Under the pieces are notes generated by a model. The model searched no databases and was not told where the DNA came from. It worked only from the letters and a program-made list of their open reading frames with translations. A DNA stretch of 53,841 bases. Source: Chlorobiota bacterium. Its GTDB lineage: Bacteria; Bacteroidota; Ignavibacteria; Kapaibacteriales; NICIL-2. Shown here piece by piece: positions 45,641 through 53,841 of this stretch. Position 1 is the first letter of the stretch, and the number at the start of each line of letters is the position of its first letter. The DNA lies in assembly GCA_026415505.1 (NCBI GenBank), contig JAOAGY010000018.1:1-53841 (forward strand), written 5' to 3'. The position numbers and the translations under genes are program-made.

Positions 45641-45679
45641 ATTCCCGTCGCATAAAACTGCCTTTGCTCTTTTCTCCCC

Positions 45680-46154
45680 GTCACCCTGAACTCGTTTCAG
45701 GGTCTCATCGCATTCCTTGTCACCCTGAACTTGTTTCAGGGTCTTTTCCCCGACGCGCAAGAGATGCCGAAACAAGTTCGGCATGACTACAGAGAACACC
45801 GTCACCCTGAACTCGTTTCAGGGTCCCGTCGCATTCCTCGTCACCCTGAACTCGTTTCAGGGTCTTTCCCCCGACGCGCAGGAGATGCCGAAACAAGTTC
45901 GGCATGACTACAGAGAACACCGTCACCCTGAACTTGTTTCAGGGTCTTTCCCCCGACGCGCAAGAGATGCCGAAACAAGTTCGGCATGACTACAGAGAAC
46001 ACCGTCACCCTGAACTCGTTTCAGGGTCTTTCCCCCGACGCGCAAGAGATGCCGAAACAAGTTCGGCATGACTACAGAGAAAACCGTCACCCTGAACTCG
46101 TTTCAGGGTCTTTCCCTCAACGAGCAAGAGATGCCGAAACAAGTTCGGCATGAC
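45680..46154. repeat. Cluster of twelve palindromic elements of two covarying types
   Basis: Seven A elements (25 nt, stem ACCCTGAA/TTCAGGGT) begin at 45680, 45719, 45801, 45840, 45922, 46004 and 46086. Five B elements (26 nt, stem ATGCCGAA/TTCGGCAT) in opposite orientation begin at 45762, 45883, 45965, 46047 and 46129. A-B units repeat mostly every 82 bp; extra A copies sit 39 bp apart. Read in the same direction, A and B differ at three stem positions, each compensated in the other arm, with loops CTYGT. Such palindromes are widespread in bacterial genomes and may act as terminators for the convergent hpt and hmgA genes. ORFs within them are not genes. Confidence 0.9.
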
Positions 46155-46179
46155 CACAGAAGCAGCACACCTATAAAAC

Positions 46180-51438: not shown

Positions 51439-51706
51439 ATGCACGTTGCTTCCCCTTTCTGGTGCAGTCGAGATAGCGCTTCGTTTCCGCTGCTACGAGA
51501 GTTTGGCGTTCGGTCAGTGCAGTTGTAGCCCCGAGAGAACTACCACCAAAACGCTAAGTACCAGTAAAAAACGGTACTTGCAAAAAGTTACTGATAATAC
51601 ACTGATGTTTCACCCGAAAAATACCCCAAAAACACGTGCAGCGACGCCCCTCGACCAGCGCCGCTGCACGTTGCCCGATTTTGTCACCAGCACGCTAACT
51701 TTCTTG
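51439..51706. other. Gene-free gap at the core/element boundary
   Basis: 268 nt without a convincing gene. From about 51,540 it is rich in A-runs. It holds one inverted repeat, AAGTACC/GGTACTT at 51,556-51,562 and 51,573-51,579 (10-nt loop). Nearby words CTTGCAAAAAG and GGTTGCAAGAG recall, but do not match, the repeat words further right. The GATC-free stretch starts just before it. An attachment site may lie here, but no integrase or direct repeat is visible to define it. Confidence 0.4.
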
Positions 51707-52483
51707 CTAAAAAGGTTGCAAGAGTAGTTGCAGGCTCCAACCCGAAAAAACGCGCCGAAGCCATCTTTGGCTGGTTAGCGATAACACCCCCACCGTGTCG
51801 CCGCGCGTCGCCTCGACGAATGCACCGTAACCGTCGCGAACGTATTTGCCGATACTTCGCTGGTACGTTTCGATTGCTGCTGTGTGTAGTGTTTCGAGTG
51901 TCTGATGGCGAAGTTTGGCGACGTTGTGTTTGCGTAGGTAATAGCCTATCTCGTCGAGTGTCGGTATTTCGTCGCTGGTAACCGTTGCCCCCTCGAAGGG
52001 CACGCCGACCGATACGACGACGTCGTAGGCACCGCAGAACCGTTCCAGGTCGCACCGCACACCGAAGGGTACCGCAACGATGTCGGCAACGCCAGCCAGC
52101 ATTTCCCAGCCCCGCAGCGCCTCTATTTCGTCACGCACCAGGACAACGCACCAGTTGCTGCTGCACACCCGCGACCCGAACGGTAGCAATTCGCCCCCGC
52201 TGTGGAACAGCCAGCCGCTGTGTCTGTGGTCGCGACCGACGACGTACCGTTTGCGCACGTTCCAGGTACGGTGCGCCTCGATGTCGGTTCCAGCCGGTAG
52301 GGTGTGGTTCCATAGTGCGCCAGCGACCGATTCAGCAATCCAGCGTACCGCACCCAGTTCGCCCGAAGGGGAAAAGTACAGCAACCCCAACGCCATACCG
52401 TTTGCCCCTGCGACCGATACCGTAACCGGTCGGCAACCGAAAACCACCGCTGGCAACAACTCCACCGACAGCCCCGCCGACAC
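51707..52483 (-). CDS. Unrecognised accessory protein, perhaps a degenerate Toprim-like replication protein
   Basis: 258 residues from GTG at 52483, which follows a GGAGGGG Shine-Dalgarno; an in-frame ATG at 52681 would add 66 residues encoded inside the upstream repeat. Nothing is firmly recognised. The middle (NWCVVLVRDEIEALRGWEMLAGVADIVAVPFGV) has the rhythm of a Toprim domain, where EGxxDAL is expected, but the catalytic Glu is Arg and no DxD follows, so any Toprim would be inactive. The C-terminus is helical (LRKHNVAKLRHQTLETLHTAAIETYQRSIGKYV). It lies downstream of the RepA-like gene and the 196-bp repeats, so a role in element replication is a guess. Confidence 0.5.
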   Translation of the reverse strand: MSAGLSVELLPAVVFGCRPVTVSVAGANGMALGLLYFSPSGELGAVRWIAESVAGALWNHTLPAGTDIEAHRTWNVRKRYVVGRDHRHSGWLFHSGGELLPFGSRVCSSNWCVVLVRDEIEALRGWEMLAGVADIVAVPFGVRCDLERFCGAYDVVVSVGVPFEGATVTSDEIPTLDEIGYYLRKHNVAKLRHQTLETLHTAAIETYQRSIGKYVRDGYGAFVEATRGDTVGVLSLTSQRWLRRVFSGWSLQLLLQPF

Positions 52484-52490
52484 CCTCGAA

Positions 52491-52882
52491 AGCCCCTCCA
52501 GGAAGTTGTGCAAAGGTTGTGCAGAAAAGGGGCAAGTTGTGCAAGAGCTATGCACAACTGAAAACCGCGAATTTGGCGCGTTTTCGCAGGTTTTCGGGGT
52601 GTTCGGGGCAAGTTGTGCAGTTGTGCAAACCCTATATGTGCACAATTGCACAACTTCGGTTTTGCCCGCCTCAGAAACCATCGCAAAGCCCCTCCAGGAA
52701 GTTTTGCAAAGGGGTCTGGAAATTGCACGATGTTTTGCAGGGGTCATGCAAAACTGAAACCCGCGATTTTGGCGCGTTTTCGCAGGTTTTTTGGGTGTCG
52801 AGGGGATGTTTTTCAGTTTTGCATACCCTATATGTGAAAAACTGCAAAACTTGATTTTCCGCCCGTTCAGAACCCATCGTTC
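52491..52882. repeat. Two gapless 196-bp tandem repeats with switched self-complementary words
   Basis: Unit 1 is 52,491-52,686 and unit 2 is 52,687-52,882. They align without gaps at about 73% identity (hand count, 52 differences). The best-kept parts are AGCCCCTCCAGGAAG at the left, GGCGCGTTTTCGCAGG in the centre and ACCCTATATGTG at the right. In unit 1 the recurring word is TTGTGCA and its complement TGCACAA; in unit 2 it is TTTTGCA and TGCAAAA at the same places. On the minus strand each unit ends with CCTGGAGGGGCTTT, a Shine-Dalgarno for the next gene. Confidence 0.9.
52671..52877 (-). CDS. Small Cys-rich ORF inside repeat unit 2
   Basis: 68 codons, ATG at 52877. It overlaps the end of the RepA-like gene by 11 nt (ATGGGTTCTGA) and ends with another 11-nt overlap (ATGGTTTCTGA) at the next ATG. 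A run of five or more G precedes the ATG. The reading (TYRVCKTEK...TCENAPKSR...NFLEGLCDGF) resembles that of unit 1, but the DNA constraint seems to be on palindromes, so the frame may be open mainly to carry ribosomes through the repeat. Whether a useful protein is made is unclear. Confidence 0.35.
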   Translation of the reverse strand: MGSERAENQVLQFFTYRVCKTEKHPLDTQKTCENAPKSRVSVLHDPCKTSCNFQTPLQNFLEGLCDGF

Positions 52883-53841
52883 AGCCCCCCTCGAAGATGG
52901 TACTTGTAGCCCGCCTTGCGATTGCCTTCGCGACGAATTCGCCCGTCACGTAACAGGGCATGTAGCGAACGGTGTACGGTCACGTTGTCGAGATTCGGTT
53001 CGTCACCTTTCAGGTATTCGAGAATTTGCTTCGCCGTCGCCCCTTCGTGCGTTCGTAGGTATTCGACAATTCGCCCCAGCCGACCGAACAGAACCTCGTG
53101 TGTCAATTCAAGCCGACCGTCTGTTTCTTTGGCGCACACCAGCCGCGTTTCCCAGCGCTTCGACGGTTCCAGCAGCGACGCCTTCGTCAGTTTCAGTTCG
53201 TAGTACGTTTCGCCGTCGCCAGTTTCTTCGTCCTCGACCGCACGAATCAGAATTTGCGACCGCGAACCGTTCGTCTTGTACACCGAACCGTAGGGCAACG
53301 CCGTTTCGCTATTTGCCCGTGCGTCTGATTTTGGTATGTGGTCAATTACCACAACGCCGCAATTGTACGCCTTGCAAAGGTCGCGAAGCCCCTTCATTGT
53401 CGCCGTGACCGTTTCCGTGTCGTTTGCGTCGCCGTTGTGTGCGTACTGGAACGAATCCACTACCACCAGGGCAGGTTCGAATTCGTACAGCATCGCCCCC
53501 AGCTTGTCGAAGTCTGCAGCCCCGCTTTTGGTGACCGGTAAGCCGTCGCTGATGTAGTAGAACGGGGTGACCGTTTCCGCAGCAGGCAGGGCAAGTTTGC
53601 CGACACGCTGGGCAACGGTCAAGGGTTCGTCTTCGCCCAGTTGTTCGAAGTCCAGGTAAACGACCGAACGCCCTTCGAGTAATTCACGATTGACCGGAAA
53701 ACCCAGCCATTCGGTCGCCCCTTGCGCAATCGAAATACAGCAGTGCAGCGCCAAGAGTGATTTTCCGCTTTCCCCTCGACCGTACAGCCAGGTTAGGTGA
53801 CCGACCGGAACGACACCCTCGATAATCCATTGCGTTCCACC
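52867..53841 (-). CDS. RepA-like AAA/RecA-fold ATPase with C-terminal winged helix (5' end cut off)
   Basis: The frame stays open to the window edge, so the gene starts beyond it; 324 codons are visible. The first visible part reads WIIEGVVPVGHLTWLYGRGESGKSLLALH with Walker A GRGESGKS. VVYLDFEQ, the Walker B ALVVVDSF, VVVIDHIPKS and GSVYKTNGSRSQI are the order seen in RepA/AAA_25 plasmid and phage ATPases. A winged-helix-like tail (GRIVEYLRTHEGATAKQILEYLKGD...VHRSLHALLRDGRIRREG) would bind DNA. It probably acts in replication of the mobile element. The TTG in frame at 53754 is internal. Its stop overlaps the small ORF by 11 nt. Confidence 0.8.
   Translation of the reverse strand, partial: GGTQWIIEGVVPVGHLTWLYGRGESGKSLLALHCCISIAQGATEWLGFPVNRELLEGRSVVYLDFEQLGEDEPLTVAQRVGKLALPAAETVTPFYYISDGLPVTKSGAADFDKLGAMLYEFEPALVVVDSFQYAHNGDANDTETVTATMKGLRDLCKAYNCGVVVIDHIPKSDARANSETALPYGSVYKTNGSRSQILIRAVEDEETGDGETYYELKLTKASLLEPSKRWETRLVCAKETDGRLELTHEVLFGRLGRIVEYLRTHEGATAKQILEYLKGDEPNLDNVTVHRSLHALLRDGRIRREGNRKAGYKYHLRGGLNDGF

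Follow-up and report, generated by a model that had tools for sequence, protein, structure and literature searches.

A tandem word-switched dyad behind a RepA-like helicase gene, a candidate duplicated replication origin of a small integrative element

Background

Near the right end of a 53,841-nucleotide stretch of Chlorobiota bacterium DNA (contig JAOAGY010000018.1, hereafter the window) stand two tandem repeats in which short words, present in both orientations, have been respelled together from one unit to the other. What kind of site is this, and does the selection act on pairing among the words or on their reading by a protein? The locus turns out to belong to a small integrative element. 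A 2017 review states that no study had yet addressed how excised IMEs replicate (PMC5704250). A layout that recurs phylum-wide after the same helicase gene gives a starting point for learning how elements of this kind are copied.

Two 196-bp units and a coordinated word switch

The two units align without gaps, as the original prediction had reported, and are identical at 146 of 196 positions. TRF likewise returns a period of 196 for the repeat. Both are read on the minus strand, and the start of unit 2 overlaps the last codons and the stop of a helicase gene:

52489-52684, minus strand: unit 1 of the tandem repeat, word GTTGTGCA in 8 copies
52685-52880, minus strand: unit 2 of the tandem repeat, word GTTTTGCA in 5 copies and GTTTTTCA in 2 copies

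Unit 1 carries eight words, five forward and three reverse, one of the copies being spelled ATTGTGCA. On the strand shown, TTGTGCA lies at 52506, 52517, 52537, 52613 and 52621 and TGCACAA at 52551, 52639 and 52647; the positions first listed are right apart from one-base offsets, the last two words lying one base before the 52640 and 52648 given earlier. All eight sites show the identical oriented G-to-T change in unit 2, so that the coordinated switch holds for every word of unit 1. Briefly, GTTGTGCA became GTTTTGCA at five sites and GTTTTTCA at two, one forward (52809) and one reverse (52835). The second word of unit 2, missing from the earlier word list, has decayed to GGGTCTGG and yet keeps the T at the switched position. 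When 50 substitutions were placed at random in 20,001 trials, at most six words shared a common oriented change and no placement reached seven, against the eight observed, which upholds the view that random drift would not produce the switch. Nor can coding constraint account for the differences between the units, since these are spread evenly over codon positions (16/18/16) in all three frames. Coding repeats were ruled out: the substitutions show no period of three bases, and the unit length of 196 is not divisible by 3.

The original prediction had proposed a search for further copies beyond the right edge. None lies there: the end of the window overlaps another contig of the assembly, C25, by 141 bp and runs on into the helicase gene. 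The genome holds only the two copies and one weak 36-bp match on contig C3, and DNA-similarity searches returned no further repeat copies in plasmids and phages and no convincing one in 60 relatives, where two short matches looked chance-like. In Rfam the units had no match above the gathering score, the only hits being tRNAs. The match on contig C3 (L003, 1468-1536, upstream of a lexA-like gene) resembles the conserved central block of the units, with 84% identity across its 36 bases; the gap around it has many TTTTCGCA-type words.

Layout of the dyads

In the sense direction a unit runs word-word, a TATA core (CATATAGGG) and word'-word', then a conserved GC-rich block and a second word cluster. 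Both units lie within dyads capable of forming hairpins:

52610-52656, minus strand: unit 1 dyad, AAGTTGTGCAATTGTGCA-CATATAGGGTT-TGCACAACTGCACAACTT (sense)
52806-52852, minus strand: unit 2 dyad, GTTTTGCAGTTTTTCA-CATATAGGGTA-TGCAAAACTGAAAAAC (sense)
52537-52558, minus strand: second, smaller unit 1 dyad, GTTGTGCA-TAGCTCT-TGCACAAC (sense); unit 2 counterpart at 52733-52754
52568-52596, minus strand: block most conserved between the units, AAAACCTGCGAAAACGCGCCAAA..TCGCGG (sense); unit 2 counterpart at 52764-52792

The words are spaced by 4-9 bp and are neither helically phased nor fixed in their distances. In unit 2 the word variants follow the crossed order 1,2 / 1',2', so that the nested hairpin contains two mismatches. 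A unit corresponds exactly to the interval that runs from the helicase stop codon to the Shine-Dalgarno sequence of the next gene (gene X), and the repeat copy takes in the last helicase codons (xxDGF-stop). Together with these copied codons, the position of the unit junction at a common GAGGGG..CT stretch suggests that the units arose by tandem duplication through microhomology.

An integrative element in a tRNA-Arg(CCT) gene

The last 141 bases of the window (53701-53841) are the end of contig C25 from the same genome, and joining the two contigs appears to restore an open helicase reading frame. That the overlap is exactly 141 bp recalls a branch in the assembly graph; the sample may contain strain variation or a further copy of the element. 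The joined contigs carry, in minus-strand order, tRNA-Arg(CCT), att, a tyrosine integrase, a short HTH protein, an AAA_25 helicase, the two units, gene X and att:

51517-51537, minus strand: att copy CTCTCGGGGCTACAACTGCAC, a 21-bp repeat
14852-14872 of contig C25 (L010): other att copy CTCTCGGGGCTACAACTGCAC, overlapping the 3' end of tRNA-Arg(CCT)
51707-52483, minus strand: gene X, 258 aa, GTG start, GGAGGGG Shine-Dalgarno inside unit 1
52867-53841, minus strand: RepA-like AAA_25 helicase with a C-terminal winged helix, its N-terminus on contig C25 (overlap 141 bp)

The att repeats lie 4406 bp apart, giving an element of about 4.4 kb, and the integrase (PF00589) adjoins the tRNA. Two species of the same genus (G001 and G003) have this tRNA beside the same flanking gene with the element absent, that is, empty sites. 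The att repeats, the tRNA and the empty sites together identify a small tyrosine-integrase integrative element in a tRNA gene. A relaxase, as would mark an IME, found no match among its four genes (integrase, HTH, AAA_25, gene X). Between the integrase and the HTH gene (L010, 16255-16545 of contig C25) lies an apparently structured non-coding stretch with no Rfam match. Its two ends carry CTGCTCTTTGA and TCAAAGAGCAG, its interior CAGCCGATA/TATCGGCTG, and GGTGCGAGCTGCCTT occurs twice.

The helicase and gene X

The helicase matches PF13481 at 1.1e-26. In its predicted model, of mean pLDDT 75, the RecA fold matches RSF1010 RepA best (Z 19.7, 216 residues, 3.5 A), and a winged helix-turn-helix (wHTH) lies at residues 253-316 (pLDDT mostly 76-93). 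Consistent with this model, its matches in PHROGs are replicative helicases, with a MarR-like wHTH at residues 257-311. We therefore class it as an AAA_25 protein of RepA type, with a predicted RecA fold and a predicted role as replicative helicase. It is the one helicase encoded by the element, which lends no support to the "unit-specific" partner first imagined for the words.

Gene X occupies the position that a toprim primase has in relatives. It has no family match and no detectable similarity to primases, its alignment with toprim proteins was unconvincing, and its structure prediction was unusable (pLDDT 32). Among the proteins of the element we found no Rep initiator family and no match to the RepC or RepB' families.

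The same layout with other words in relatives

Wherever the AAA_25 helicase gene stands alone, the dyad layout tends to recur behind it with unrelated words: in the sister species, in other members of the order and class and in integrative elements of Bacteroidales. The sister species G003 (JAOAEV010000032, "Chlorobiota bacterium") has its element in another tRNA, tRNA-Glu; the integrase is 54% identical, and ATTCTCATTCTCATTCCTATATATAGGGGTTGAGAATGAGAAT directly follows an AAA gene that is 34% identical: the layout is kept and the word differs. Four genomes of the same order (G018, G025, G039 and G044) and one of the same class (G648) have dyads of other words 5-60 bases from the AAA stop. Those of G039 and G648 have long arms (21 and 18 bp) without repeated words. 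In G044 (L047, 7239-7294) a dyad of (TCAG)n tandem repeats directly follows the helicase gene, an extreme case of short words.

Integrative elements of Bacteroides and Parabacteroides have the gene order integrase, HTH/DUF3853, AAA, toprim, and between AAA and toprim they carry such dyads, one or two per gap; the Bacteroidales gene after the helicase encodes a DnaG-like/Toprim_2 primase. Of 29 additional AAA loci surveyed in Bacteroidales, most have the dyad. The words among relatives include CACTTCACTT, GTTTAGTTTAC, CTTTACTTTA, GGTCGGTCGG, GTTCGGTTCGG, TACTGTGTTAAC and CGTTCGTTAGTTA, and two-copy arrays are present in several genera.

Because the dyads were found by a search for complementarity, their own complementarity is inflated, and the comparisons with shuffled sequences and with controls are the valid part. 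A dyad score of at least 8 with a TATA-like loop was obtained for 16 of 26 AAA-downstream regions and for 13 of 295 control gene ends, that is, other gene ends in the same sequences, two of the 13 being really AAA-downstream regions. Scores are higher in the AAA-downstream regions than at control ends (Mann-Whitney p = 2.8e-8), and the dyad is stronger than in dinucleotide shuffles in 12 of 17 first-round regions (p <= 0.033). In 11 of 24 gaps the most frequent 6-mer is repeated in excess, most clearly in G000, the genome of the window, and in L099. No comparable dyad follows the gene in primase-helicase fusions (G329, G237, G272, G384), and the relatives L091 and G025b are without a clear one.

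These comparisons bear on another reading of such a site, a duplicated transcription terminator after the helicase gene whose switch came from mutation bias or from conversion in hairpins. Its place just past a stop codon and its hairpin potential suit a terminator. The strong excess over other gene ends speaks against it, as do the two-copy arrays, the words outside the hairpin and the arms themselves, which are not GC-rich, enclose an AT-rich loop of 10-25 nt and in most cases lack the T-tract of an intrinsic terminator. We regard this explanation as highly improbable.

A scan of viral contigs for CTATATATAGGGGTTG gave 16 loci, mostly chance matches. AAA and integrase scans of viral contigs, with one scan of genome contigs, returned nothing closer than distant relatives, apart from G003 itself. 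At the distant viral loci, the palindromes close to AAA genes were set aside as GC-rich or of another type. One phage contig (IMGVR_UViG_3300029893_000022; L032, 1440-2200) has an AAA_25-like gene, many GGTTGCC/GGCAACC words and CTATATATAGGGG; this region may be a site of this kind from a different group of hosts.

Pairing of the words or reading of the words

The check by homologues that the original prediction had proposed came out in its favour, as forward and reverse words do not vary independently: in many related elements the differing words stay complementary across the TATA core. The original prediction had left two causes open, pairing or binding by a partner. The arms of 21 dereplicated elements contain 356 Watson-Crick pairs, 9 sense-strand G-U pairs, 19 A-C and 28 other mismatches. 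A hairpin in sense-strand RNA is less fitting, since the G-U bias that it leads one to expect is not seen. Moreover, an A-C mismatch is conserved in the CTTTA family, in dyad 1 of L076 the left-hand CACTT faces CGCTT, and in G000 the words outside any hairpin switched with the rest. From the missing bias, the conserved mismatches and the switched unpaired words, the identity of the words seems to count for more than flawless pairing. Binding by a partner thus fits better than strict pairing, words without a simultaneous pairing partner having switched too.

The same counts weigh on the idea of a single-stranded or cruciform hairpin origin, like that of pRN1 or ssiA/ssiB of RSF1010, in which selection would act on pairing and any words that match one another would do. 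Nearly all elements have complementary nested arms, some of them long and non-repetitive (G039, G648), and the close relatives L078 and L081 differ by a clean two-sided change, from TTTAGT/ACTAAA to TTTGGT/ACCAAA; the long arms and this change leave room for a role of the hairpin. The stem-loop of the Sulfolobus plasmid pRN1, just downstream of the rep gene and needed for replication, is a precedent, its complementarity being conserved and its sequence not (PMC4234260). Against a hairpin origin stand the mismatches without G-U bias, among them the conserved A-C and that of L076, the switched unpaired words and the crossed words of unit 2, and we judge it unlikely.

Which protein would read the words? 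Word similarity follows the similarity of the AAA helicases (Mantel r 0.57-0.69, p 0.002), much less that of toprim (r 0.27), and hardly that of the HTH protein (0.06-0.18). Physical linkage alone would give some association between AAA and words and may explain part of this signal. The HTH/DUF3853 protein was rejected as reader, as near-identical HTH proteins accompany quite different words. Within the helicase the words follow the ATPase domain and not specifically the wHTH (partial Mantel about 0); a wHTH-word specificity was dropped on this nil partial correlation.

These correlations also affect another possibility, that the site is an operator or RNA element setting the expression of the gene after the helicase, through repressor autoregulation or translational attenuation. 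It lies between two same-strand genes, a word is close to the GGAGGGG Shine-Dalgarno in both units, and alternative word-word pairings exist. Nevertheless, the words do not track the HTH protein, there is neither a sense-strand G-U bias nor an Rfam match, and an operator has no need of a TATA core in a long dyad. This explanation appears to us rather less probable still than a hairpin origin.

A proposed origin and its known counterparts

We suggest, as on balance the probable reading, that the repeat is the duplicated replication origin (oriV) of the 4.4-kb element, word-read by its own helicase. After excision of the element, the RepA-like helicase would bind the short words on both sides of the TATA core, bend or melt this core and load itself; the product of the next gene, a toprim primase in most relatives, would then prime synthesis. 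The words would co-evolve with the helicase and so be element-specific, the layout conserved and the spelling free. In favour of this reading are the recurrence of the dyad after the AAA stop, the many different words among relatives and the way in which they track the helicase, the RepA-like fold with its predicted wHTH, the primase gene next door in Bacteroidales, the primase-helicase fusions that lack a dyad, and the P4 and pRN1 precedents. Against it speak the irregular word spacing, a gene X without similarity to primases, the relatives without a clear dyad, the G039 arms without repeated words, the missing tie to the wHTH in particular and the association to be expected from linkage; moreover, two words in one element with one helicase call for a tolerant reader. 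The differing words of the units may have come from concerted change under such a reader, from a second origin captured from a related element, or from a switch in progress.

The repeats of the P4 origin (ori1/crr) stand in both orientations around AT-rich DNA, and RSF1010 oriV is served by RepA, RepB' and RepC, with ssi hairpins used by RepB'. With the origin of pRN1, these are close precedents for a design that had been thought undescribed; for the dyad design itself we found no description in the open-licence literature. As in P4, a replication helicase with a C-terminal winged helix, here predicted, goes with short origin repeats in a small satellite-like integrative element, the binding of words being here putative. 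Unlike P4, whose alpha is a single primase-helicase polypeptide, the helicase has the RecA/DnaB fold of AAA_25 with a separate toprim primase in relatives, and the words vary by element and are packed in a compact dyad. According to work cited in PMC4234260, the alpha winged helix of P4 binds the origin repeats.

RSF1010 (IncQ) shares the closest fold to the helicase in its RepA, separate helicase and primase, and an origin, here putative, with repeats and hairpins. It differs in that we found here no RepC-like iteron-binding initiator and no 20-bp iterons, the helicase has an extra wHTH and the primase is of another family. pRN1 resembles our element in a site directly downstream of the replication protein gene and a protein with a C-terminal wHTH (PMC4234260), and differs in its stem-loop of about 100 nt, in its archaeal prim/pol-SF3 protein (here a RecA fold, not SF3) and in the lack of repeated words. 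Iteron theta origins have direct repeats of about 17-22 bp and a Rep initiator, unlike the words of about 5-8 bp in both orientations seen here.

Further counterparts are the NBU-type elements of Bacteroides, with tyrosine integrase, HTH protein, AAA ATPase, toprim and the same dyads in the gap; unlike them, our element has 4.4 kb without a relaxase gene, and its gene X is no recognisable primase. For the replication origin of NBU-type elements we found no description in the open-licence literature. The AAA-toprim dyad, visible by eye in gut Bacteroides elements that carry cargo between species, is a precise site to test, and the natural word/helicase pairs form a set for studying the joint change of initiator and origin. 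More tentatively, the dyads might represent a phylum-wide origin class of Bacteroidota with a fixed layout and words that drift with the helicase, forming a replicon-specific address (an incompatibility barcode); an element with two tandem addresses would then have been caught mid-switch.

Elsewhere in the window, at 45678-46160, inverted pairs (CACCCTGAACTCGTTTCAGGGT; ATGCCGAAACAAGTTCGGCAT) make up tandem arrays of 121 and 82 bp.
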